A DNA stretch of 45,690 nt, taken from NCBI GenBank assembly GCA_030726915.1, contig JANRCR010000004.1:3176-48865 (forward strand), given 5' to 3'. This DNA is from Candidatus Nanopelagicales bacterium (lineage in GTDB: Bacteria; Actinomycetota; Actinomycetes; S36-B12). Made by a program: the position numbers and the translations under genes. Under the pieces are notes generated by a model. It ran no database searches. It saw only the letters and a list, made by a program, of their open reading frames with translations, and had not been told where the DNA came from. Below are positions 989 to 15,475 of this stretch, one piece after another; the stretch's first letter is position 1, and each line of letters begins with the position of its first letter.

Positions 989-1780
989 ATGACCGTGACC
1001 GTGATCGAGATGGACTCCGCCACCGCCGCCGCCATGAAGCGCCTGCGCCGGCTCAATGTCATCGCCGGCTTCGCCCACCTGATCCAGATGATCCTCATCC
1101 TCATCCTGGCGACCGACTTTGCGCTCCCGATCACGGCGGCCTACGTCGAGGGGCCTCCCGGCACTCCCGCGTCCGACCCGGTGACCCTCGTCGACGTCCG
1201 CGTCGCCTGGGGTGTAGCGGCGTTCTTCGGCCTGTCGGCGCTCTTCCACTTCCTGGTGGCAAGCCCGCTCTTCTACGGCCGCTACGTCGCCGGACTGCTC
1301 GAGAGGCACAACTACTTCCGCTGGGTGGAGTACTCCCTGAGCTCGTCCATCATGATCGTGCTCATCGCGCAGATCGTCGGCATCTTCGATGTCGCCGCGA
1401 TCATCGCGATCTTCGGTGTCAACGTCTCGATGATCCTCTTTGGCTGGCTCCAGGAGAAGTACGTGCAGCCCGGCGGCGGACTCACGCCCTTCTGGTTCGG
1501 CTGCATCGCCGGCATCGTGCCCTGGATCATCATCGTGATCTTCGTCATCGCGCCGGAATCCACGGGCGGCAACCAAACCCCCGCCTTCGTCTACGGCATC
1601 ATCATTTCCCTCTTCATCCTCTTCAACTGCTTCGCACTCGTGCAGTACCTGCAATACAAGCCGGTGGGCAAATGGGCCAACTACCTTCGCGGGGAGTCGG
1701 CGTACATCATCTTGAGCCTGGTCGCGAAGTCTGCCCTCGCCTGGCAGGTCTTTGCCGGCACCCTCGTCCCGCCTGCCTGA
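989..1780 (+). CDS. Heliorhodopsin
   Basis: A 263-residue, seven-helix membrane protein with the heliorhodopsin signatures. The helix-7 motif SLVAKSALAWQVF contains the retinal Schiff-base lysine (K247). Helix 3 has RWVEYSLSSS with the counterion Glu at E114. Histidines H30 and H87 sit where the family has its internal polar-cluster histidines. Heliorhodopsins bind retinal with the N-terminus inside the cell, opposite to type-1 rhodopsins, and have slow photocycles without ion pumping; sensory or regulatory roles have been proposed. The start ATG lies 6 nt after CACACT, a weak -10, so the mRNA may be leaderless. No retinal-synthesis gene (crtY, blh) is in the window. The identification is firm; the cellular role is open. 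Confidence 0.96.
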   Translation: MTVTVIEMDSATAAAMKRLRRLNVIAGFAHLIQMILILILATDFALPITAAYVEGPPGTPASDPVTLVDVRVAWGVAAFFGLSALFHFLVASPLFYGRYVAGLLERHNYFRWVEYSLSSSIMIVLIAQIVGIFDVAAIIAIFGVNVSMILFGWLQEKYVQPGGGLTPFWFGCIAGIVPWIIIVIFVIAPESTGGNQTPAFVYGIIISLFILFNCFALVQYLQYKPVGKWANYLRGESAYIILSLVAKSALAWQVFAGTLVPPA

Positions 1781-2796: not shown

Positions 2797-2808
2797 GTCG
2801 ACCTACGG
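2791..2808. terminator. 18-bp perfect palindrome over both convergent stop codons
   Basis: CCGTAGGTCGACCTACGG is self-complementary and can fold as a 7-bp stem with a TCGA loop on either strand. The TAG stops of the plus-strand DUF4395 gene (2794-2796) and the minus-strand MFS gene (2805-2803) occupy symmetrical places in the two arms. There is no T-tract, so factor-independent termination is uncertain. Confidence 0.55.
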
Positions 2809-4263
2809 AGGTGTCGGACGCGCCTTGAGCCCGGAAAGATCTCGGCCTGAAATCTCGTCGAGCGACTTGCCCGCCGGCTCGATCTTGAAGACCAGGGTGA
2901 CGATCAGCGCCAGGATACAGATCCCCGCCATCCCGAAGACCAGCGCGGGAATCCCGATCGCCTCCTGCAGGATCGGGAAGAAGAAGACACCGATTGCCGC
3001 GCCGAGCTTGGCAGCGCCCGCCGCGAATCCATGGCCCGCTGCGCGAATATCCTGGGGGAAGATCTCCGCGGGCAGGGCGTACGTCGTGGCATTGGGACCG
3101 GCGTTCATGAAGAAGTTGAAGATCGCAAAGCCGACGAAGACCAGACCGAGGTAGCCGGTGCCGTCCGGCCCCTGGAGGATTGAGGAGATGCCCAGCACGA
3201 CAAGGCCCAGCGACATGAAGATGAAGCCGGTCGTCTGCAATCGGATCCGACCCCATTTTTCGACCAGGAAGATCGCTGCGGCAAAGCCCAGTACAAGGAA
3301 GATGTCCAACACGGCGGTCCACTCCGTGGAGAGGATGTCGTCAGCGATGAAATTGGTATTGGATTTGTCCTGGCTGCCCCCGAAGGCCAGTGCCGCGATG
3401 AGGGTGGGCGTAAAAATCCCCACGCCGTAGGTCGCAATATCCATGAGGAACCACGGCACCGACGTAAAGATCGTCCGCCGGATCATGTCCGGCTTAAACA
3501 ACTGCGGCTGCCATAGCGCCTGGATGCCCTCGGAGGATTGCTCCACCTTCTCGCGGTCCTTATCGGTGATGATCACCGGGACATTGGTGAGCTCCTCAAC
3601 AACTTTTATGGCTTCTTCTTCCTGCCCATTCTGGGCCATCCATCGTGGACTTTCGGGGACGCCGCGTCTCAGCCAAATGATGATGAGGGCCGGGATCACG
3701 CCAAAGCCGAGCATCCAGCGCCACGATGTCTCCTCCGGGAGGATCAGGAGCACGCCGACTCCCACGAGCGCACCGAGCAGCATGCCCACCGCCTGCAGGG
3801 AAAAGGCGGAGACGAGCCAGCGCCCCCGGTTTTTTTGCGGCAGCACCTCCGCGAGGTAGGACGCCGCGATCGGGTAATCCAAACCGATAGCGATGCCCAG
3901 CAGAAAGCGGAAGGCAATCAACGACCAGGTATCCCACGCGACCATGCAGCCGATGGAGAAGACCACGAACATCCACAGGTCGTACTTGAAGATGCGTCGC
4001 CGGCCGAGTTTGTCACCCAGGGGACCGAGGACGGCGGCTCCGAACATCGCCCCGACGATGGCCGCCGCTGAGATCAGACCCTTCTGCCAGGCGTTAACGC
4101 CGAGGTCCTCCGCGATGAGCGGATTAGCAACGCCGATGATGAAGAAGTCGAAGCCGTCCAGCATGATTCCCATGCCGGCGAGCAACCAAACCTTTTTGTG
4201 CAGCTTGGTCATTCGCGCCTGATCGAGCGCCTTGCCTATGCCAATGGGCTTCACCTGGCTCAC
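2803..4263 (-). CDS. MFS transporter, PHS (phosphate:H+ symporter)-like
   Basis: A 486-residue, 12-segment major facilitator protein. The N-half has DGFDFFIIGVANPL, GPLGDKLGRRRIF (loop 2-3 signature) and GIAIGLDYPIAASYLAE. The C-half has the segment NAGPNATTYALPAEIFPQDIR, read as GPN-x-TT-x4-PAE-x-FP, followed by AAGHGFAAGAAKLGA, which resembles the Pho84/PHS family more than sugar porters. The likely role is proton-coupled uptake of inorganic phosphate or a related anion; a sugar or organic-acid substrate cannot be excluded. Context supports phosphate, since it follows pstB on the same strand. The start is GTG 4263, with TAGGTT 6 nt upstream giving a leaderless mRNA separate from the pst operon. 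Confidence 0.75.
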   Translation of the reverse strand: MSQVKPIGIGKALDQARMTKLHKKVWLLAGMGIMLDGFDFFIIGVANPLIAEDLGVNAWQKGLISAAAIVGAMFGAAVLGPLGDKLGRRRIFKYDLWMFVVFSIGCMVAWDTWSLIAFRFLLGIAIGLDYPIAASYLAEVLPQKNRGRWLVSAFSLQAVGMLLGALVGVGVLLILPEETSWRWMLGFGVIPALIIIWLRRGVPESPRWMAQNGQEEEAIKVVEELTNVPVIITDKDREKVEQSSEGIQALWQPQLFKPDMIRRTIFTSVPWFLMDIATYGVGIFTPTLIAALAFGGSQDKSNTNFIADDILSTEWTAVLDIFLVLGFAAAIFLVEKWGRIRLQTTGFIFMSLGLVVLGISSILQGPDGTGYLGLVFVGFAIFNFFMNAGPNATTYALPAEIFPQDIRAAGHGFAAGAAKLGAAIGVFFFPILQEAIGIPALVFGMAGICILALIVTLVFKIEPAGKSLDEISGRDLSGLKARPTPP

Positions 4264-4351: not shown

Positions 4352-5170
4352 TCATCCGAAGCGGCCATTGACGTAGTCGAAGGTGCGCGGGTCCTGAGGC
4401 TGACTGAACATCAGATCTGTGGGACCGTGCTCAATGATGTAGCCGGGCTGACCGTGCTCGGCGAGGAAGAAGGCGCAGCTTTGAGAGACGCGCTGGGCCT
4501 GCTGCATGTTGTGGGTCACGATGACGATCGTCACCTCTTCGCGCAACTCATTAATCGTCTCCTCAATTCGCCGCGTTGAGGTCGGGTCCAGGGCCGAGCA
4601 CGGCTCATCCATGAGCAGCACCTTGGGTTTGATCGCCAGCGATCTCGCGATGCACAACCGCTGCTGCTGTCCGCCGGAGAGCCCTCCCCCGGGAGCCCGG
4701 AGACGATCCTTGACCTCCTTCCACAGCCCCGCCTTGACGAGGCAGTGCTCGACCAGATCGTCCCGCTCCTCGTGATTGACGTGGACACCGTTGAGCTTCA
4801 GCCCCGCTATGACGTTGTCGTAGATGCTCATGGCAGGGAAGGGATTGGGCTTTTGGAAGACCATCCCGATCTGGCGGCGGGCATCGGTGATGCGCACACT
4901 GGGGGCGTAGATGTCCTCACCGTCCAGCAGGACCTCACCCGCGATCCGTGCGCTGATGACCAACTCATGCATCCGGTTGAGCGAACGCAGGAAGGTTGAC
5001 TTGCCGCATCCCGAGGGACCGATGAGCGCCATGACCTGTCCGGCCGGCATGAACAGGGACACCCGGTCCAGGACGAGGTGGGTGCCGAACCAGCAGGAGA
5101 TGTCGATGGCCTGAAGTGAGAAGAGTTGCGGAGCGGTGGTCGCACCCGAGCCATCAACGGTCAGGGTCAT
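4352..5170 (-). CDS. pstB: Phosphate ABC transporter ATP-binding protein PstB
   Basis: A 272-residue ABC ATPase of the PstB type. It has Walker [10 protein letters not shown] with the PstB-typical FLRSLNRM immediately after, a Q-loop in [11 protein letters not shown], signature LSGGQQQR, Walker [14 protein letters not shown] and a switch His in VTHN. It energises phosphate import through PstC and PstA at the inner face of the membrane. The start ATG at 5170 fits the family; an upstream in-frame start at 5293 would overlap the preceding gene by about 90 nt. It is the last gene of the minus-strand pst series, 29 nt after the pseudosortase gene, unusually far from pstA, with six surface-protein genes between them. 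Confidence 0.95.
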
Positions 5171-5199
5171 GTGAGGTTTCCCATTCTTTGAGCGTGCGG

Positions 5200-6123
5200 T
5201 CACAGGAGATTCGGCAGAAGTCGGATGGCGCTCATGGAGGCCATCACACCGGCAAAAAAGAAGATGGGGGCAGCGACAAGCCACGCCTGCCACTTACCCC
5301 AGCGCAGGACGAGCCACACCGTGGCCACCGCGACAGCCAGCAGGACCTGAAGCCACAGCAGGAGGGGCACGAGCCCCTCGGGATCCCCGGCCATGGCCTG
5401 CTCGGCAGGGTCCATGGAAGCGGGCGTGATCACGCGGGGTGGGGAGGGCTGCACCTGTGATACGAGTTCAGCATCCACGCGTAGCAGGTCGGTCGGCATG
5501 AATCGCGGACCCATCGCCGTCACCAAAGTGAGGCGACCCTCACCGGATTGCAGCAGCGCCGGGATGGGATCACCCGGCCGACGTACACCGATGACGCGAT
5601 ACTCGGCGACACCCTGACCGGTCGTGGCCACGATGGTCATGCCCGGCTGCAAAATCTCCACCTGGCCAAAGGGGCCTCCGAAGGCCGCCTGACGCCCGTA
5701 GATGACCGAGGTACCGGCTTGGCCTGGGAGCACCGTGTCGCGCTTATGTCCGGGGCCGGACTGCGTCACCGTCGACGTTGTCCCTTCTACAACGACCTCC
5801 TGGAGCCCGATATCGGGGATCTCCAAGATGGCGATCGCCGCCCCCGGCTGGAGAAGGGCACCATTGATGTCTGTCTGTCCGACAGGTGCGATGGCATTGG
5901 CCAACTCGCTGCGGAAGTCGGAGTAGAGGACCTCCTGATCCCGCGCATGAATGAGTTGACTCACGACCAGCAGATTGGCCAGGAAGCCCAGGCACAGGCA
6001 ACTGAATATCAACAGCACACTGGCGACAAGGAACATGGGCGAATCCATGAAGCGGGGTGCGGGATCCTTGGTGTCACCGGAGCCCGGAGGCGTCGAGGCG
6101 AGCGAGTCATCCAACGAGATCAT
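5200..6123 (-). CDS. Sortase-fold membrane protein lacking catalytic His and Cys (pseudosortase)
   Basis: A 307-residue protein. One membrane helix at about 29-55 is followed by an extracellular domain (about 95-225) with class E/F sortase wording: [35 protein letters not shown], then [15 protein letters not shown] and RLTLVTA. Two more helices follow at about 252-273 and 279-300. The catalytic His normally found in a GHR motif is replaced: the aligned residues read YGRQ, putting Arg144 there. The catalytic Cys of the TLxTC motif is Ala203. An Arg (R215) near the usual position remains. Transpeptidation therefore looks impossible, and no LPXTG substrate is encoded nearby. It overlaps the preceding gene by ATGA. 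A structural or ligand-binding role in the Pst assembly is inferred. Confidence 0.8.
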
Positions 6124-6914
6124 GAGCCCACCCCCGCTGCGGTGTCGTCATCTGCATGCTCGGTGGCTGGTTGATCGGCGTCTGCGTGATCGATGTCTTT
6201 GGCGTCGCGCTCGCGGGATCGCTCGCGCCACCAGGCATAGCCCGCGCCCAGGAGGAGTACGCCGCCCGCCACGAAAAGGATGGTGCGCCATGGGAGCGCG
6301 CCGCTCGACTCATTCGCCGCGGCGGTTGCGGATTCGGCCGACGGATCAGCGGCTGACTCCGGATCGGACACGACGGGATCGCCGTACGCGAAGCCGGCTG
6401 AGTTGGGCACGTAGCCCTCGATCAACTCCTCGATGGGGGTGGCTGACTTCCCCTGCGCGACGTAGCGCCCCCGGCCGTCGATGGTGATGGTAGCGGTGAA
6501 CACCTGGAGGTCGGCTGTGTCGAGTGTGTCCCGGCACGCGAAGGTCAGGGTGTAGTCGCCCCTGATGCGCTGACCGGGAGCCGCGGTCGCGATGTAGGTG
6601 CCGAGATCGGTGGGCAGTGGCACGACGTAGTGGCCCGGATAACTCTCCGGGCCAATTGTGGTGATCTTGGTGGTGCCGAGGAGGTTGCCGCGATCGGCGC
6701 CCTTGAGTTTGGGGCCGTCCATCATGACGGCGAATGTCTGACCGCGGGTGCAGACATCGGATGTCGCGATGTCGATCGCTGATGTGAGATCACCCTGGGC
6801 GGGTTCAACGACGAGATAGCCGAGTTGCTCGGGCTCGGCGGCGAGCGCCGGGGTCGCCAGGGCAGCCGCGAGCACCAGCCCGCAGGCTGATGCGACGACA
6901 TAGTGCAAAGACAC
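6120..6914 (-). CDS. Membrane-anchored surface protein of the extended Pst locus
   Basis: About 264 residues from the GTG at 6914. That start gives a clean 26-residue signal peptide ending TPALAA and has AGCGAGG 6 nt upstream. A further-upstream GTG at 6974 would put coding sequence across the PHO-box repeats. The exported part has a beta-rich domain with a Cys pair (SDVCTRGQ and TFACRDT), comparable in layout to the N-terminal domain of the neighbouring exported protein at 7026-7772. A low-complexity Ser/Ala/Glu linker precedes a single C-terminal membrane helix (LPWRTILFVAGG region) and a charged Asp-rich cytoplasmic tail of about 40 residues. There is no LPXTG motif. No named family recognised. 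Confidence 0.75.
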   Translation of the reverse strand: MSLHYVVASACGLVLAAALATPALAAEPEQLGYLVVEPAQGDLTSAIDIATSDVCTRGQTFAVMMDGPKLKGADRGNLLGTTKITTIGPESYPGHYVVPLPTDLGTYIATAAPGQRIRGDYTLTFACRDTLDTADLQVFTATITIDGRGRYVAQGKSATPIEELIEGYVPNSAGFAYGDPVVSDPESAADPSAESATAAANESSGALPWRTILFVAGGVLLLGAGYAWWRERSRERDAKDIDHADADQPATEHADDDTAAGVGS

Positions 6915-6950
6915 GGGTGACCTCGCTCTCTCGATGCGCATCGTGTCGAT

Positions 6951-6972
6951 ATTGAATGAATCAGGGGTGAAC
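6951..6972 (-). promoter_or_regulatory. Tandem PHO-box-like direct repeat before the second pst transcription unit
   Basis: On the minus strand GTTCACCCCTG is followed directly by ATTCATTCAAT, two 11-nt units in register with TTCA at the same place. The pair resembles the one upstream of pstC (15454-15475). It lies just after the terminator hairpin and about 37 nt before the GTG at 6914, so it can drive the last three genes under phosphate starvation. Confidence 0.55.
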
Positions 6973-6977
6973 ACAAA

Positions 6978-7025: not shown

Positions 7026-7772
7026 CTATCTGCCGATCTTGATGCTCTTCAGCCAGGCTGCGGCGACATAGCCCTTCTTGGCAGCAATCACCGTGACGAC
7101 GATCGTCTTGCCCCGATCGCCGGGCTTGACCTTGTAGGAAAAGCCCCTGCCGACCGTCTTCTTGCCGATCTTCCAGGTGGCCTTGACGGTCACGTCAGAC
7201 GGCGACCAGGTGCCCTTGGACACCTTGAGGGTCGCGCCTGCCTTGGCCTTGCCCGTCACCTTGGGTGCGGTGACGGCCTCGACGGGGAGATTCGCAGCAC
7301 CTTCGGCGAAGGTCAGGCCACCGGCGATCTGCTTGATGGTGACCTTGGTCTCGAAGACCGTGATCGGCTGCGCCACCGTGGCGGCGCGGCAGATGAACTC
7401 CAGGTCGTAGACCCCGGTGGGGATCGCCGAACCGTAGGCCTCCTGGGCGATCTCGAGCGTGTAGGCCACCGGCACGGACATCGGGGTGGTTTGCGACCCC
7501 GACGCCGGGATCGACGACAGCGGCTGCAGACCGTTGAGATTGATGTCCTCCGTCAGCGATCCGCCCGTCAACTTGACGACGTAGTGCGTGGCGTTCGGGC
7601 TGGCGCACCCGCCTGTCGTGGTGACGAACAGGGCGGTCATGCCATCCCCCGAGGACGGGGTGATGCTCAGGGTGCCGTTGGCCGAAGCCGCGGGAGCGGC
7701 CACGAGGGCCGCTCCCGCCACCGCGAGGGCACCCACGGTAGCAGCGAGGCCGCGCGTGAAGTGTGTAGACAT
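7026..7772 (-). CDS. Exported Ig-like two-domain protein of the pst locus
   Basis: A 248-residue protein with a signal peptide (residues 1-31, ending PAASA). The first domain (about 32-155) has a Cys pair (GGCASP, FICRAA). The second (about 165-245) reads PKVTGKAKAGATLKVSKGTW, then KATWKIGKKTVGRGFSYKV and a GKTIVVTVIAAKKGYV strand, the pattern of a common actinobacterial Ig-like repeat. It has no C-terminal membrane anchor and no lipobox. It follows the third PstS-like gene by 30 nt and is the last gene before the terminator. An adhesive or scaffold role in the cell envelope is inferred from the fold only. Confidence 0.75.
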   Translation of the reverse strand: MSTHFTRGLAATVGALAVAGAALVAAPAASANGTLSITPSSGDGMTALFVTTTGGCASPNATHYVVKLTGGSLTEDINLNGLQPLSSIPASGSQTTPMSVPVAYTLEIAQEAYGSAIPTGVYDLEFICRAATVAQPITVFETKVTIKQIAGGLTFAEGAANLPVEAVTAPKVTGKAKAGATLKVSKGTWSPSDVTVKATWKIGKKTVGRGFSYKVKPGDRGKTIVVTVIAAKKGYVAAAWLKSIKIGR

Positions 7773-7802: not shown

Positions 7803-8807
7803 TCAGCTACGGCTGCTGGTGTCGCCGCACTTGCTGGCATCGACCAGATCACCGAAGCCCTGGAGGTTGATTTGGGGCTTCGCCTTGCACAGCAGGGAGT
7901 CCGTGCCGACGAAGACCTTGTACTCGAGCGACGTGGGATCATCGGCCTTCTCAGCCGGGATGATGTTGAACATGTTGCGCACGCCGGAGAAGACCGTGTT
8001 GATCACCATCGGAGCGACACCATCGATGACACCGGGAACAGCGCGGCCACGACGGTCAGGAGCCGTGCCGTACATCTGGCCCTGGTAGACGGCTGCCGAG
8101 TAGGGCATGACCTGGTTCTTCTTCAGTTCACGGCCATCATGCTCCTGGGGCAGGTTGCCGGGGAACGTGCCGCCGTCCTTCTCGGGGACCAGGCAGGGGT
8201 ACGTGCCCGCCGAGATCTCGGCCTCGGTGATGCCGACATACGACAGCCAGCTGCTGCGCGTCCCGGAGCCCGTCTGGACGAGGGCCGGCTGGATATCCGA
8301 GACCTCGCACTTGAAGATCGCGATGAGCTGGGCCTTGGTGAGCTCCCGCGGCACATCGCCATCAGCACGCACTGCAAAGGTCAGCGCGTCCGTGGCGAAC
8401 GGCACCCACACCATGGGGATCGAGCTGGTGTACGACCCACGCGAGGACGACGAGCGAGCGAACTGGAAGCAGCCGTCACCGGCCACCAGCGAAGCCTGGA
8501 GAGCGTCGCGGCCCTTGGACGAGCCGTTGGGGCGAATGATGTCCTTGCACGCGGGTGTGCTTGCCGGATCCTTAGTGGTGATGGTCGGCGAGCCGATGGC
8601 GTCGTAGGAGCCGATGACCTTCTGGCCGCCATCGGTCACGATCTCCGCGAGGGCGTTCAGCAGGGACTGGGTCGTGTCGGAGCCACCACCGGCGAGCGCG
8701 CGGTAGGTCGGGGGCCCGACGGGGTCGGCCTGGGCGAGGGGAAGCGTGGCCAGCCCAAGGCTGAGCACGCCCGCACCCGCCAGGGCTGCAATGAGGGACT
8801 TTCGCAT
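7803..8807 (-). CDS. Exported PstS-like phosphate-binding-fold protein
   Basis: A 334-residue protein with a signal peptide ending LAQA near residue 27. The mature start has GGGSDTTQSLLNALA, the phosphate-binding-loop style motif (GSDTT) of actinobacterial PstS-like proteins. Further on come FARSSSSRGSY, an ALTFAVRADG strand and LTKAQLIAIFKC, which matches the usual PstS helix that follows the hinge. It has no lipobox and no C-terminal helix, so it should be free in the wall or periplasm-like space. The start ATG 8807 is 2 nt after the preceding stop. It probably delivers or buffers phosphate for PstCA; another anion is possible. Confidence 0.8.
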   Translation of the reverse strand: MRKSLIAALAGAGVLSLGLATLPLAQADPVGPPTYRALAGGGSDTTQSLLNALAEIVTDGGQKVIGSYDAIGSPTITTKDPASTPACKDIIRPNGSSKGRDALQASLVAGDGCFQFARSSSSRGSYTSSIPMVWVPFATDALTFAVRADGDVPRELTKAQLIAIFKCEVSDIQPALVQTGSGTRSSWLSYVGITEAEISAGTYPCLVPEKDGGTFPGNLPQEHDGRELKKNQVMPYSAAVYQGQMYGTAPDRRGRAVPGVIDGVAPMVINTVFSGVRNMFNIIPAEKADDPTSLEYKVFVGTDSLLCKAKPQINLQGFGDLVDASKCGDTSSRS

Positions 8808-8809
8808 AA

Positions 8810-11323
8810 TTAGTGTGCTCCTCTTTCCTGCGGTGCCCGACGCGGGTTTGCGGCGGGAGTCATGGTGGCTCGTGCGCGCTGCATCAAGACGGCAGCGACG
8901 AGCAGGGCCGTGCCGCCAGCAATCAGCAGCAGCACGGCGAGATAGCGCACAGCCCCGACGGGGCTCTGCGGGGTGAGTGCTGTGGTGGCAGCCGATGTGA
9001 CGGCCACCGTCTGGGCCGGGGGCTCCTCGACGACGGTCTCCTCGACCACCGTCTCCTCCACCACGGTCTCTTCCACGACCGTGTCCGTCACCGTCGTATC
9101 CACCACGGTGGTGTCGGTGTACGTCGTGTCCGTGTACGTCGTATCGGTGAACGTCGTATCGGTGGTCGACGTATCCGCCGGAAGGCCCCCCGTACTTGGA
9201 TCCTCCGACGAATCTGGCTCGGGTTCCGTGGTCGGTTCGGGCGCAGGATTGGGCTTCTCGCCCACGCGCTCGACGATCTCGGTCGCCGCCTCCTTGGCAA
9301 CCGCTCGCTCGCCGTCCGACAGCGGCACGTATCCGAAGGGGAGCTGACCTGGTCCATCGCCGAGTTCCTGGCCAGCGCTGGCGATGTAGTTCAGCGCACC
9401 TGCGTACGCCTCAGCGCTCGCCTCCGTGAGGGAGCCGGGCACGGTGGCCGCGTAGGTGTAGGAGGTCAGCGGGTAGGCGCCCTTGACCTTGGCGCCGGGA
9501 TCGGGCTGCACGATGCCCGGCACGCCTGTTCCCTTGGCGTCGGCGGCAGCGAGCCGGATGGACTCCTCCGTGGGCGCGACGAACTCGCCAGCGGCATTGC
9601 GCAGAAGGGCGGGAGTCAGGGAGAAGCGGGTTGTGAGGGGCGAGTCAGAGATGACCACCATGGCACGCCGGCCGGGCTCCTGGGGGGGCGTCTTCTTGTA
9701 ACCCGGGGGAAGCGCGGCCGGGTCGTACGTGCCCGACGCCATTGTGTCACCGCGACTAGCTGCGCGCGAAGCCGCGAAGAGATCACCCGCGAACGGGAAG
9801 AGATCGAAGGTGCACAGGGGCACCGCGCGATCGCTGTACTTCACGCACGTGTTGTCGGAGCGAGGGAAGTCCGACCGTGGATAGCTCTGGCGCTTGTAGA
9901 CCGGGTTGACGACAGTGCCCCATTTGTCGGCCTTGCCCTTGATCCACTCGCGCGCCTCGGCATCGGACCAGATCCAGTCCCACACGAGGCGGGCGGAGTC
10001 TGTCTCCCCAAGAGTCGTGATCACGTGTCCTAGCCCGGGGAACTTCAGACCCTTGAACTGGGGATTGAGGTCGAGGAACTCGGGATCCTGTGAGATGTCG
10101 TAGGGGTTCGTCTCCACGCGATCGGCGTTAGGGGCAGCATCGAAACGATATGTCTGCGTGAGGAGCTTGGCGACCAGCCGAGGCGTCAACTTGATATCAC
10201 GAAGGCGCTCGCCATCGCGCAGACGGACGGGCTCGGGGGCCAGGGTCGATGACTGGCTCTCAAGGTTGAAGGCGAAGGTCAGGCCTGAGAGAGCTGCCGG
10301 CGCGTAGACGACCGGGCGCGGTGCCTCGTCCTCTGGGACGCCGTACCCGATGAAGGCCATGCCCGGCTGTTCTGTCTTCAGCTTCTCTCGCGCCTCAAGG
10401 TCCGACAGCACCGTGAAGCTGAAGTTGCCGAGGCCATCGGCACACCAGGCTGGCTGCCAACGGGACACAGCCTCGATGACGCGGTCAGTTCCGAGGAGAG
10501 GTGTCTCGGACCCGGTGATCGAGCAGGAGGCGCCCACGGGCTGGAAGTCAAGCGGGAAGAAGATCCGATGCTGCCAGTTCGATGTCATCAGGGGCGAAGT
10601 GTCCAAGCCCTCGGTGTAGGTCAGTCCGCGCTTGGTGCCGTCGACCTCGGTGTCGCCTCGCGGCACGACGACGAGCCAGCAGAGCGGGGACTCGCCGTCG
10701 CGGGACTGCCCGCAGCCAAGTCCTGGAGACTCGACGCCGGTCTGCACCTCGAGGAAGTCCTCGCCCGTGCCGTCCGAGCGGATGCGGTTGTGATTGGACT
10801 CGTTGGAGGTGTAGCGATCGAAGAACTCGGACTTGTTGCCGGTGTTGGTCCGTCCAGTCCATGAGACGAAGGGGATGTAGGACAGGGTGCCGGACTTGTA
10901 CTCGTTGTACTTTTCCTCAAGGGGGTCGACGACCCCGGCTGTCGTCATTTGCCGTGAATTGGTGTTTTGCCCACCATTGGCAGACTTCTGCGCGCCGTAG
11001 ACGCACTGCTCCCGAGGGGGCCCATCCTCAAGCGTGCCGCCCCAACACTGCATGATCTGCAGGTAGTTGATGCCCACGAGGCCGAATTCCGGTGATGTCG
11101 GCTTGCCACCCTCCCAGGTCACGCGTACCACCTGGTTGACCAGGTTTTGCGTCTGCGCCACAGTCACCTTGAGCCCAGTGAAGGGACCGTTGCCCTCCTT
11201 CGTCACAGCACTGCCTTCGAGCCGAGGGCCACGATCCGCCGGCGAAGCGGAGGCTGGCACGGCCAGCACTGCGCCGCTCGCGATCAGGGCAAGGCCGCTT
11301 ACCGCGGCGACGAGGCGCTTCAC
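8810..11323 (-). CDS. Giant membrane-anchored PstS-like protein
   Basis: An 837-residue protein, more than twice the usual PstS length. It has a signal peptide (1-27), then a large Cys-containing region (about 30-690) whose second half has PstS-like features: GLTFAFNLES, DIKLTPRLVAKLLTQTY, SYTYAATVPGS and a YPLTSY segment. A Pro/Glu/Asp spacer leads to a Thr/Val repeat stalk (TDTTY, EETVV units, about 700-765), then one membrane helix at about 794-814 and a basic tail. The stalk would hold the binding domain away from the membrane across the cell wall. The GTG start at 11323 overlaps the pstS stop. Anchoring by a C-terminal helix instead of an N-terminal lipid is unusual for a binding protein. 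Confidence 0.75.
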   Translation of the reverse strand: MKRLVAAVSGLALIASGAVLAVPASASPADRGPRLEGSAVTKEGNGPFTGLKVTVAQTQNLVNQVVRVTWEGGKPTSPEFGLVGINYLQIMQCWGGTLEDGPPREQCVYGAQKSANGGQNTNSRQMTTAGVVDPLEEKYNEYKSGTLSYIPFVSWTGRTNTGNKSEFFDRYTSNESNHNRIRSDGTGEDFLEVQTGVESPGLGCGQSRDGESPLCWLVVVPRGDTEVDGTKRGLTYTEGLDTSPLMTSNWQHRIFFPLDFQPVGASCSITGSETPLLGTDRVIEAVSRWQPAWCADGLGNFSFTVLSDLEAREKLKTEQPGMAFIGYGVPEDEAPRPVVYAPAALSGLTFAFNLESQSSTLAPEPVRLRDGERLRDIKLTPRLVAKLLTQTYRFDAAPNADRVETNPYDISQDPEFLDLNPQFKGLKFPGLGHVITTLGETDSARLVWDWIWSDAEAREWIKGKADKWGTVVNPVYKRQSYPRSDFPRSDNTCVKYSDRAVPLCTFDLFPFAGDLFAASRAASRGDTMASGTYDPAALPPGYKKTPPQEPGRRAMVVISDSPLTTRFSLTPALLRNAAGEFVAPTEESIRLAAADAKGTGVPGIVQPDPGAKVKGAYPLTSYTYAATVPGSLTEASAEAYAGALNYIASAGQELGDGPGQLPFGYVPLSDGERAVAKEAATEIVERVGEKPNPAPEPTTEPEPDSSEDPSTGGLPADTSTTDTTFTDTTYTDTTYTDTTVVDTTVTDTVVEETVVEETVVEETVVEEPPAQTVAVTSAATTALTPQSPVGAVRYLAVLLLIAGGTALLVAAVLMQRARATMTPAANPRRAPQERGAH
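9024..9177 (-). repeat. In-frame Thr/Val/Glu repeat array (wall-spanning stalk)
   Basis: Tandem 15-nt-like units encode EETVV about four times next to TDTTY/TDTTV units. They form a low-complexity stalk just before the transmembrane helix of the giant PstS-like protein. Such arrays readily vary in copy number. Confidence 0.7.
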
Positions 11324-13044
11324 GCGTCACCACCCGCGCGCCGTGACGCCATCGTGCGAGCGACGAGGGGGGGTGCAAAGAGCAGGGCAAGGACGACGAC
11401 GAACGTCGCGACGAGAAGACCGGTGTAGGGGCCCCAGCCCGAACTTGCCTCGGTCGACACCGGGATACCGGCGACGTAGGCGCCTCCCGTCACGGCGCCA
11501 CCCGCCGCAGCCGCAGGATCGACGATGACCTCACCGGTCGTCGGGTCGACGACCGGGTCTGCCGCGATGACCTGGCCCGTCTCGGGATCCACGACCACGG
11601 CTGCGCCACCCCCGTCGACGGCGACATCCGTCCCCGCACCCGAGCCCGTCCCGACCGCGGTGCCCGTCCCACCCGCGGTGCCACCACCGGCCACACCTGT
11701 GTCCGTGGTGCCACCACTGGATCCACCCGATGTACCACCACCAGCGTTACCACCACCGGCGTTACCCCCACCGGCATTACCGCCACCCGAGGCGCCACCT
11801 CCGGCCTCGGCCGCCGTCCCACACTGGGTCGGTCCCCTGGCATCGCAGGCGGGGGGTTGGGGCGCGGACTTGGCGAGGGTGTTGCTGCCATCGGCGGAGA
11901 AGGTCGGGTTGTTGCACTTGGCGATGTTGATGTTTTCCACCACGGCGCCCGGAATCCGCTTGATCACGTCAAAGCCCGCCTTGACGAGGTTGATCGGCAA
12001 CGGTGAATAGCCGAGGGCATCGGCCTGCTGTTGGCCCTGGCATAGGAAGTAGTTGGCGAAGTCCGCGAGGGTGTTGCCCTTCTCGGTGCTGAAGCCGTTG
12101 TCAAGTGTCGTGGGGACGACCATGTAGCTGTACGAAGACAGTGGATAGGAACGCTTATCCGTATTGCCGTACACACCCGTGAGGTTTTGACTCAGGTCCG
12201 AATTGATGCGAGCACCGAGCAGGCCGACCGCCACGGCCTCTGCGGTGGGCAGCACGTAGAAGCCTGCCTTGTTGAGCACCTTCGCCGCCGGGAAGCCGGC
12301 AGCCTTGGCGTAGGAATACTCAACGTAGGTGATCGCTCCCACGCTCTGGTCCTGCTTGACATATCCGGAGACACCCAGGGAGCCGCTCTGGGCGACAAAT
12401 CCGGGGCTGCTGGGGAAGTTTGAGGTGAAGCCGCACGGAGTGCCCCGACCGACCTTTTGGCAGTAGGCATTCCAGATATCGGGGTACACGGCGGCGAGCC
12501 AGGTGGTGAACTGCGCGGTCGTGCCTGAGCCATCCGAGCGCACAATGGGCACCACCTTGATGGGTGGCAGATTCAGTCCGGGATTGTCCGCCTTGATAGC
12601 CGGATCACCCCACTGTGTGATGACGCCCGTGAAGATCTTGGCGATGGTCTCGCCGGAGAGCCTCAACTGGGTCACCCGATTGGGGCCGATCTTGAGGTTG
12701 TACATAAAGGCGGTGCCACCAGCGACGATGGGCATGTAGGCAAAGGGACGAGCCGGAGGCTGATCAACAACATTGCCGTCCTTGAGCCCGTAGGGGATCT
12801 CAGAGACAGCAAAGTCCACGGTGCCGTTGCGGAACTGATTGCGTCCGTCGGAGGAGCCCGAGGCCTGGTAGTCAATGCGCATGCCGTACTGATTGACATT
12901 GCGGCGCCACTGGTCGACAGCGTTGGCGCTCCAGGTGGACCCCGATCCAGAGACAGGCACATAGCTGGCTGCGGATGCCGGTGCACCGGCGAAGAAGAAG
13001 GACGTGCCGAGAAGCAGCCCGGTCGCCAGGATACGTCGTCTCAT
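11320..13044 (-). CDS. pstS: Phosphate-binding protein PstS with C-terminal membrane anchor
   Basis: A 574-residue protein with a signal peptide ending ASA at about residue 25. The PstS domain (about 27-390) has the phosphate-binding loops GSGSTWSANAVDQW and RSDGSGTTAQFT, plus the family helix LSGETIAKIFTGVITQW. It is followed by a Gly-rich linker (about 415-470, GGGNA repeated three times), an acidic Val/Asp segment, and a C-terminal helix near 545-566 with a basic tail. A canonical PstS is about 350-380 residues and, in actinobacteria, a lipoprotein; here there is no lipobox. It binds phosphate for PstCAB. The ATG overlaps the pstA stop (ATGA), and its own stop overlaps the next start. Confidence 0.92.
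   Translation of the reverse strand: MRRRILATGLLLGTSFFFAGAPASAASYVPVSGSGSTWSANAVDQWRRNVNQYGMRIDYQASGSSDGRNQFRNGTVDFAVSEIPYGLKDGNVVDQPPARPFAYMPIVAGGTAFMYNLKIGPNRVTQLRLSGETIAKIFTGVITQWGDPAIKADNPGLNLPPIKVVPIVRSDGSGTTAQFTTWLAAVYPDIWNAYCQKVGRGTPCGFTSNFPSSPGFVAQSGSLGVSGYVKQDQSVGAITYVEYSYAKAAGFPAAKVLNKAGFYVLPTAEAVAVGLLGARINSDLSQNLTGVYGNTDKRSYPLSSYSYMVVPTTLDNGFSTEKGNTLADFANYFLCQGQQQADALGYSPLPINLVKAGFDVIKRIPGAVVENINIAKCNNPTFSADGSNTLAKSAPQPPACDARGPTQCGTAAEAGGGASGGGNAGGGNAGGGNAGGGTSGGSSGGTTDTGVAGGGTAGGTGTAVGTGSGAGTDVAVDGGGAAVVVDPETGQVIAADPVVDPTTGEVIVDPAAAAGGAVTGGAYVAGIPVSTEASSGWGPYTGLLVATFVVVLALLFAPPLVARTMASRRAGGDA
11743..11787 (-). repeat. Three 15-bp repeats encoding GGGNA in the PstS linker
   Basis: Three consecutive 15-nt units (11743-11757, 11758-11772, 11773-11787), differing at a few third positions, encode GGGNA. 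They lie in the flexible linker between the phosphate-binding domain and the membrane helix. Confidence 0.8.
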
Positions 13045-14318
13045 GAGGTGTCTCCGAAGTCAAGGGAAGGGGTACCCGACGACGGTTTCGGATTACTGCC
13101 CTCAGACGCCACCCGAGCAGACTCCCTGCGGGTGAACCTTTGTGAATCTTCACGTGAACGCTTCACACTGCGGCGCTGCTGGTTGCGGCTGAGGTTGCCC
13201 GCTCCCCGACCCCCAATGATGCGGGCGATGATGAAGAGGATCAGCACCACGAACATGAGCACCGCAGCCGTGCCGAAGCCTCGGGCGATCATGGTGGGCT
13301 CGGGTGACTTGACGAATTCGAAGGTGGCCAGGGGAAGCGACACCATCGGGCCGCTCGCCGGATTGAGATTCAACGCGGCTGTGAAGCCCGCCGTCAGCAG
13401 GACGGGGGACGTCTCACCGATCCCGCGGGCGGTGCCCAGGATGATGGCGGTCATGAGCCCGGACCGGGCCGTGGGCAGGGTGACAAACCACACGGTTCGC
13501 CACTGACCAGCCCCGAGGGCGTAGGACGCTTCCTTGAGATTGCCGGGGACGAGTCGCAGCACGACATCGGAGGCACGAATGATGATCGGCAGCATCATGA
13601 CGCTGATGGCCAAGGCTGCCGCGAGGCCCGACTTGTCAAAGCCAAGGATGAGGATCAGCGACGCGTAGATGAAGAGGCCGGCAACGATCGAGGGAAGGGC
13701 GGTCATCGCTTCCGAGATCGTCCGGACAAAGCGCGCAAAGGGACCTGGAATCTCGTTCATGTAGACCGCGCAGGCCACACCCAGTGGGATAACGATGGCC
13801 AGCGCAATGGTGATCATGATGAGCGTGCCCGCAACAGCGTGGAGAATGCCTCCGGACGTGAGCGGGTCGAGCGGTCCCGCATTTTGCATGTCCTGGGTGA
13901 AAAAGTTGAGGTTTGTCAGGGCCTCCCAGCCCTTGATGACGGTAAACGTCACCACGAAGATGAGGGCCAGCAGCAGGGCAAAGGCAAGGCTGTGGATCAC
14001 GACTGCCGCGATGCGGTCCTTGACCGCCGAGAAGTCCTCGTCCAGCGAGACGAGCACGGCGTACAGCCCAACAAAGGCCACGTAGCTGACCACGAGAAAG
14101 CCCATCCACCCGCTGAAAGGCAACAGGGTGAAGAGGAGGGCGGCAACACCAACGCCGCCCACGGCTGCACCCGCCAGGGAAAGGACGTCCGAGCGTCGGA
14201 AGCCCCCGATGCGGCGTGCCTTGAGATCCACGGGTGTCGGTGTCCGCTGCGGCAGCGTGGTCCGGCGTGTGGGGTCACCACTGGCCAGTTTGTCGAGGTC
14301 GTCGATGGAGGCTGTCAT
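13041..14318 (-). CDS. pstA: Phosphate ABC transporter permease PstA
   Basis: A 425-residue permease. The core has the PstA pattern SEAMTALPSIVAGLFIYAS, the coupling segment EASYALGAGQWRTVWFVTLP that contacts PstB, and TARGIGETSPVLLTAGF near the end. Compared with the usual size of about 280-300 residues it has two extra N-terminal membrane segments (about 45-90) and a basic, disordered C-terminal tail of roughly 45 residues. The start ATG 14318 lies 2 nt after the pstC stop. An upstream in-frame start at 14645 would lie inside pstC and is rejected. It forms the channel with PstC. Confidence 0.94.
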   Translation of the reverse strand: MTASIDDLDKLASGDPTRRTTLPQRTPTPVDLKARRIGGFRRSDVLSLAGAAVGGVGVAALLFTLLPFSGWMGFLVVSYVAFVGLYAVLVSLDEDFSAVKDRIAAVVIHSLAFALLLALIFVVTFTVIKGWEALTNLNFFTQDMQNAGPLDPLTSGGILHAVAGTLIMITIALAIVIPLGVACAVYMNEIPGPFARFVRTISEAMTALPSIVAGLFIYASLILILGFDKSGLAAALAISVMMLPIIIRASDVVLRLVPGNLKEASYALGAGQWRTVWFVTLPTARSGLMTAIILGTARGIGETSPVLLTAGFTAALNLNPASGPMVSLPLATFEFVKSPEPTMIARGFGTAAVLMFVVLILFIIARIIGGRGAGNLSRNQQRRSVKRSREDSQRFTRRESARVASEGSNPKPSSGTPSLDFGDTS

Positions 14319-14320
14319 CA

Positions 14321-15391
14321 CTAATCCGTCGATGCGCCGGAGCGCGATCGGGCGACGATGGACGACGCGATGAAGTTGACAACGAGCGTGATGAGGAAGA
14401 GAGCCAGGCCTGCGGCCATGAGGGCAGACGTCCCGAAGGGGGTCGCCTCGCCGTAGCGCAGCGCGATCAGCGCGGAGATGGAGTTGGTGCCGTTCTGCAA
14501 AATATTCGGCTGGATGAGGAACACCGGCGAGATGATCATGAAGACCGCGATGGTCTCCCCCAGTGCACGCCCCAGGCCGAGCATGGTGCCGCCGATCATT
14601 CCGCCTTTGCCGAAGGGCAGGACGACGGAGCGGATCATTCCCCACTTCGTCGCACCGAGTGCGTAGGCGCCCTCGCGCTCACCCACGGGAGCCTGGGAGA
14701 ACACCTCACGCATGACCGACGTGGTGATGGGCGCGACCATGAGCGCCACGACGATCCCGGCGATGAACGTGGAGGAGGTGAAGACCGTGGCGGTCGAGAG
14801 CGGATCATCGGGATCGCTCCCGTCGACCGAAAAGAAGGGAATCCATCCGAGATAGGTCGACAGCCACCGGGCAAGCCCGATGATCTGTCCCTGCAGGAAG
14901 AAGAACCCCCAGAGACCAAACACCACACTGGGCACCGCGGCCATGAGGTCCACCAGGCTGATGAGTGTCTGACGAATCCTGCGGGGGCTGTACTCGGAGA
15001 TGTAGAGAGCCACACCCGTCGACAGCGGGACGGCAAAGAAGATCGCCGTGATCGCAATGAGGAAGGTGCCGGTCAAGACCGCCGCTATACCGAAGTTGCC
15101 CCCGTCGGGCTCCCACGCCTGCGTGGTGATGAAGGACAACCCTGCCTGAGACAGTGCCTGGAGGGCGCGGATCGTCAAGAACACCCCGACGAGCGCCATG
15201 ATTACGAGCACTGCCACGCCACTGGCACTGATCCCACCGCGGAAAATCCGGTCGGTCATGCTGCGGGTGGTCGTTAACTGACGGGGTTCGACCACCCCAT
15301 CCACGGACGGCTCCGGCCGAGGTGGGAGCACGGTGGTGGACACAGGCGCACTCTCACGAGTCAGGGCAACGAGTGAGCGGCGTCCAAACAA
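14321..15391 (-). CDS. pstC: Phosphate ABC transporter permease PstC
   Basis: A 356-residue permease from TTG 15391. A GTG at 15343 would give 340 residues and is equally plausible, because the first 16 residues are not family-like. It has the PstC-typical YISEYSPRRIRQTLISLVDLMAAVPSVVFGLWG region, split here as ISEYSPRRIRQ and MAAVPSVVFGLWG. The coupling motif is EGAYALGATKWGMIRSVVLP, followed by GLGRALGETIAVFM. It is the first gene of the minus-strand pst series, preceded by tandem PHO-box-like repeats. It forms the phosphate channel with PstA. Confidence 0.94.
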   Translation of the reverse strand: MFGRRSLVALTRESAPVSTTVLPPRPEPSVDGVVEPRQLTTTRSMTDRIFRGGISASGVAVLVIMALVGVFLTIRALQALSQAGLSFITTQAWEPDGGNFGIAAVLTGTFLIAITAIFFAVPLSTGVALYISEYSPRRIRQTLISLVDLMAAVPSVVFGLWGFFFLQGQIIGLARWLSTYLGWIPFFSVDGSDPDDPLSTATVFTSSTFIAGIVVALMVAPITTSVMREVFSQAPVGEREGAYALGATKWGMIRSVVLPFGKGGMIGGTMLGLGRALGETIAVFMIISPVFLIQPNILQNGTNSISALIALRYGEATPFGTSALMAAGLALFLITLVVNFIASSIVARSRSGASTD

Positions 15392-15453: not shown

Positions 15454-15475
15454 CCTGAATGAAGTCCAGGTGAAT
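15454..15475 (-). promoter_or_regulatory. Tandem PHO-box-like direct repeat upstream of pstC
   Basis: On the minus strand ATTCACCTGGA is followed directly by CTTCATTCAGG. The two 11-nt units match 9 and 10 of 11 positions of the actinobacterial PhoP direct-repeat unit. They lie about 63 nt before the TTG of pstC, in the 260-bp divergent region with the HD gene. Other GTTCA sequences at 15503 and 15602 may be further weak units; nothing else is seen in this gap. Confidence 0.55.

Follow-up and report, generated by a model that had tools for sequence, protein, structure and literature searches.

A catalytically dead sortase family accompanies a membrane-tethered variant of the Pst phosphate importer

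The Pst phosphate importer is treated as a settled system of four parts. Sortases have a fold that evolved to grip a protein segment just outside a C-terminal membrane helix, and the sortases closest to the protein described here are those of class E (SrtE of Streptomyces and Thermobifida; family model NF033747; PDB structures 5go5, 5cuw and 9iok). Our protein, which we call the pseudosortase, shares with class E its fold (Z about 12-13), the region of the GPGH...PGQ.G motif and the membrane topology of its nearest active relatives. It differs from class E in having lost all three catalytic residues, in a shortened spacing before the catalytic Cys position, in scoring well below the cut-off of the class E model, and in being encoded in pst operons that contain no sorting substrates. 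Another point of comparison comes from streptococcal pilus operons, which encode SipA, a dead signal peptidase needed for pilus assembly. Like the pseudosortase, SipA is a surface-processing enzyme whose catalytic residues are lost and whose cleft is kept, and it serves the machine of its own operon (PMC4049620), but it has the unrelated signal peptidase fold and acts in pili, not nutrient uptake. A review of actinobacterial phosphate transport (PMC7866108) does not mention sortases. In the open-access literature we found no description of a pseudosortase, inactive sortase or sortase-like subunit of Pst, and no case of an inactive sortase-fold protein that has become fixed as a pseudoenzyme throughout a lineage. 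A sortase-fold pseudoenzyme within a variant Pst importer thus appears to be undescribed.

The pseudosortase gene lies in a window (the whole stretch of DNA analysed, 45,690 nucleotides from a Candidatus Nanopelagicales genome) in an operon on the minus strand with the order pstC, pstA, pstS, two genes for further PstS-like proteins (837 and 334 aa), orfB, orfA, pseudosortase, pstB. The operon resembles that of a Pst importer (PstSCAB) both in its proteins, as identified by family models, and in having a PHO-box-like repeat upstream. PstC (14321..15391; TIGR02138, 252.3 bits), the PstA permease ORF (13041..14645; TIGR00974, 209.8 bits) and PstS (11320..13044; TIGR00975, 231.6 bits against a cut-off of 205) score above their cut-offs, and the PstB ATPase ORF (4352..5293) falls just under its own (TIGR00972, 336.0 bits against 343.2). 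The true start of PstB is probably the ATG near position 5173, past the stop codon of the pseudosortase. The PHO-box-like pair of direct repeats, TTCACCTGGACTTCATTCAG (15455..15474, minus strand), lies upstream of pstC and is the only match in the window. It has 0 mismatches, with 0.05 matches expected in the window at up to 1 mismatch. Two 11-nucleotide repeats are the form of the PHO box given for Streptomyces (PMC7866108).

The operon is unlike a canonical one in anchoring PstS through a membrane helix at its C-terminus, where canonical PstS has a lipid, in encoding extra PstS-like proteins, and in including the pseudosortase. PstS (574 aa) has no lipobox, so it is not the lipoprotein expected of a Gram-positive Pst system. 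The 837-aa PstS-like protein (8810..11323) matches TIGR00975 in part and also ends in a membrane helix; its predicted fold was not usable (mean pLDDT only 36.5, from six sequences). The 334-aa PstS-like protein (7803..8807) is secreted and has no C-terminal helix; its PBP_like_2 match is weak here and clear in its homologues, which are sometimes fused to Ig-like repeats. The product of orfB (248 aa; 7026..7772), whose homologues have Ig-like domains (Big_3_5), is likewise secreted with no C-terminal membrane helix. The secreted product of orfA (284 aa; 6120..6974), which is found in some homologous loci, does have one. The claim in the original prediction that the neighbouring surface proteins carry their own C-terminal helices is therefore right for PstS, the 837-aa protein and OrfA, but not for the 334-aa protein and OrfB. 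As that prediction also said, LPXTG is lacking: none of the window's own operon proteins has an LPXTG- or LAXTG-like motif at its C-terminus. Near the locus are an MFS transporter gene that adjoins pstB (2803-4263, minus strand; its nearest family is the phosphate:H+ symporter model TIGR00887, far below cut-off) and a heliorhodopsin gene (989-1780, plus strand; NF038020, 335 bits against a cut-off of 100). A plasmid search gave no match.

The pseudosortase gene (5200..6123, minus strand) encodes 307 amino acids from ATG to stop. The protein has a membrane helix at residues ~29-58, an extracellular sortase-fold domain at ~88-226 (5446..5862) and two C-terminal membrane helices at ~248-300; the corresponding elements of the predicted model are a helix at 29-75, strands within 96-220, and helices at 248-275 and 277-306. 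A profile search matched Pfam family PF04203 (Sortase) to residues 100-202 with an E-value of 2.3e-12 (47.2 bits, cut-off 26.6). The model has only moderate confidence overall (mean pLDDT 64.7; block means of 54-90 over the domain), and it matches solved sortases with Foldseek E-values of ~1e-9 and structural Z-scores of 11.5-13.8; for example, the match to Streptomyces SrtE (5go5) has Z 12.8 and an rmsd of 2.6 over 125 residues. By homology and by its beta-barrel fold the protein is thus a member of the sortase superfamily. The class E/F framework originally assigned to it is valid as ancestry but not as class membership, because its score against the class E model NF033747 is 60.8 bits, below the cut-off of 160.

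The original prediction was of a catalytically dead sortase in a phosphate operon, with Arg144 (codon 5692..5694) at the position of the catalytic His and Ala203 (codon 5515..5517) at that of the Cys. Both assignments were confirmed by alignment, in which every intact sortase has H and C in these two columns, and so were the open reading frame, the sortase match and the pst genes. We found a third loss that had gone unremarked: the catalytic Arg is replaced by Leu213 (codon 5485..5487). All three losses are family-wide and preserved in many actinobacteria, and they place the protein outside the sortase enzymes. An active site rebuilt from other residues can be rejected, because the domain contains no Cys or His able to do so. 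The only cysteines in the protein, 42 and 44, are both in the first membrane helix, and its only histidines are 59 and 126.

To collect homologues we drew on genomes of the same genus and order, named Cryobacterium, Leifsonia and Nocardioides genomes, and a class-wide sample. Scores in the class-wide sample fell into two groups, one of full-length matches scoring at least 173 bits, along with a few fragments cut by contig ends, and one of ordinary sortases at 125 bits or less. This gave 67 homologues (62 distinct members from the class and 5 from other classes), spanning many families and several classes. The catalytic Cys is present in 0 of the 67, and the His position is Arg in 62 and Lys in 5. 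The Cys position is A, S, G, T or V–mostly Ala, with Ser in some–and no conserved nucleophile has taken its place; the domain lacks Cys altogether in 61 of 62 family sequences. At the catalytic Arg position the family has Val, Ala, Leu, Ile or similar residues, and Arg is kept in only 1 of 59 aligned rows. This row is probably L195 (9317-10657, plus strand), a basal dead member located beside pst genes, in which Arg replaces His, Ser replaces Cys, and the catalytic Arg is seemingly kept (SERLVV). L195 is a possible intermediate, and a single row that keeps Arg suggests that the catalytic residues were lost stepwise.

The dead family has also acquired conserved features of its own. Seven polar residues are near-invariant among 58 sequences: R128 (in 50), S139 (52), R144 (54), Q170 (56), R181 (56), R197 (54) and D217 (56). 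The spacing from Tyr175 to the Cys position, in the region before strand 7, is 28 residues in the dead family versus 32-38 in active sortases, and a loop with the pattern R-W-G-x-W-Q-x-W is conserved between the last two helices. Among near relatives, dN in the domain is ~0.11-0.24 and dS is 1.1-1.8, a ratio of about one tenth; dS is near saturation in most pairs, and close Cryobacterium pairs give the same picture. The domain is under purifying selection and is not drifting.

In a tree of 76 domains, a single branch separates the 59 dead sequences from the 17 intact ones (support 100/96, and present in 200 of 200 bootstrap trees). When ten columns were masked (the three catalytic ones and seven that are family-specific) the dead clade was still recovered, with support of 98/93 and a bootstrap of 97%. 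The tree is based on 143 columns with no outside group to fix its root; if the intact sortases are taken as the outer lineages, the dead sortases form one clade with one origin. Their nearest intact relatives (L194 and L196-L201) keep His, Cys and Arg. Two of these, L196 and L197, also align across the C-terminal helices of the pseudosortase; the most likely ancestor is therefore an active sortase, class E-like and already with this topology. In the stretches that we read beside the nearest intact relatives there are no pst genes; the PstB matches there, at 108-126 bits, are by score other ABC ATPases. One genome, G383, has both types: a dead copy (L193) beside pst genes and an intact copy (L194) elsewhere. 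The genome of the window contains one other sortase (L002, G000:C45:14542-14961), with His and Cys intact, that is very divergent from the dead family. It fell inside the dead clade in a first tree, on a very long branch (3.81 changes per column), which we treated as a long-branch artefact, and it was excluded from later trees.

The dead family is tied to the Pst operon. Pst genes adjoin every homologue that has enough flanking sequence, the exception being L112, where the contig ends, and the same set of genes in shuffled order surrounds homologues from different families. No intact homologue was found within a pst locus. In most loci pstB is the next gene downstream of the pseudosortase, but there is no adjacent pstB at L100, L107 or L076. 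The divergent members L076-L079 also have pst genes next to them, in part on the other strand. Several genomes have two pseudosortase operons (for example, L100 in G224 and L107 in G154), and in one type pstB is not adjacent. The pseudosortase and the 837-aa protein occur together in 38 of the 44 genomes that have either one (3 and 3 unpaired), out of 297 genomes; the P-value of 7e-41 takes no account of the relatedness of the genomes. The unpaired cases come from contigs that are cut or genomes that are incomplete, apart from a single divergent locus where the PstS-like protein is under threshold. At another locus (L109, 11099-16320, minus strand) the gene for the small PstS-like protein is present in three full-length tandem copies in one operon. 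The replacement of the Cys and the His, whose conservation the original prediction proposed to check, holds throughout a monophyletic family with a fixed genomic setting.

The PstS proteins encoded beside the pseudosortase have a C-terminal hydrophobic helix wherever the end of the protein is present, and no convincing lipobox; short lipobox-like matches (L037, L090, L111 and L124) are in N-terminal stretches whose start codon is not fixed. Among 16 canonical PstS proteins, by comparison, 12 have a lipobox and none has a C-terminal helix. Six of the 16 come from genomes that also carry a pseudosortase operon; in these genomes as elsewhere, pst operons of the canonical lipoprotein type have no pseudosortase. 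Most columns that are conserved in lipoprotein PstS are kept in the tethered form, the phosphate-site motifs among them. At one phosphate-site position where lipoprotein PstS has Asp, 29 of 42 tethered PstS proteins, including the one in the window, have Glu, and this change might alter affinity or the choice of oxyanion. Additional membrane helices in PstA do not set the subtype apart, since canonical PstA has them too. A sorting motif shared by the tethered proteins was not found either: LAXTG-type hits are sporadic (7 among 198 operon proteins of homologous loci) and only one is convincing. This is an orfA-like ORF at L086 (10902-12434, minus strand) with a plausible LAATG sorting signal, a helix and a basic tail, unlike other operon proteins. 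Where the dead sortase occurs, the Pst system is of a distinct subtype, with PstS held by a helix and, nearly always, a second large PstS-like protein.

What might a dead sortase do in a phosphate importer? We consider it somewhat better than an even bet (about 0.55) that it is a non-catalytic membrane subunit of a Pst-type importer with helix-tethered binding proteins, docking or orienting them at PstCA. Under this proposal, an active class E-like sortase would have been recruited into a pst locus and then lost catalysis; its fold, kept at the outer face of the membrane, would bind the tethered PstS-like proteins by their stalks or domains and leave them uncut; and its grip on a segment beside the C-terminal helix would position these binding proteins at PstCA. 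The loss of catalysis, fixed locus, tethered partners and membrane topology all fit a non-catalytic subunit at the outer face. In tethered PstS and the 837-aa protein the architecture is the one that sortases grip, although neither has a sorting motif. Against docking, the tethered proteins share no sorting-like motif that would be an obvious ligand for the pseudosortase pocket. The original suggestion that the protein holds PstS-like proteins in the wall agrees with the C-terminal anchoring of PstS, but a place in the wall is not supported, because the proteins are anchored by membrane helices and a conserved sorting signal is lacking.

Co-occurrence and synteny fit a scaffold, a sensor or an assembly factor alike. 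The main rival to a docking subunit is a sensor of phosphate or another anion, in which the remodelled cleft would bind phosphate or a wall anion and signal through the helices and cytoplasmic loop to PstB or PhoU. The invariably basic residue at the His position, the new near-invariant R128, R181, R197, Q170 and D217, the conserved R-W-G-x-W-Q-x-W loop and the usual proximity to pstB are what such a sensor might show, but the loci with no adjacent pstB argue against it, and we regard it as possible but doubtful. More doubtful still is a factor for assembly or folding that acts just while the PstS-like proteins are being exported, similar in principle to SipA. Two points speak for it: the precedent itself, where an inactive enzyme of surface processing retains a cleft for which binding of a component has been proposed (PMC4049620), and the several large secreted partners in the same operon; three membrane helices suggest instead a standing component of the membrane. 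Catalysis of an unrecognized kind, using a different active site, could be read into the new conserved charged residues, but with the domain almost always free of Cys and no conserved nucleophile at the Cys position we consider it very unlikely. Recent local inactivation, or an error of assembly or sequencing in this genome, would explain the odd residues and nothing more. We reject it as next to impossible, because the same loss is seen in 67 homologues from many families and several classes that form a single clade with low dN/dS.

Overall, we think it probable that a whole sortase family lost its catalytic function just once, when it entered a phosphate-uptake operon, and turned into a dedicated subunit of a second Pst architecture with membrane-tethered binding proteins, in which the old active site may be a site for docking or ligand binding, possibly a phosphate sensor. 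We found no other PstS above the cut-off in the genome of the window. The tethered system, as the only Pst system found there, would be this organism's main high-affinity route for phosphate. Automatic annotation of such genes as sortases would need correction, and a conserved dead sortase tied to tethered PstS would show a new way for Gram-positive cells to hold and orient their nutrient-binding proteins.
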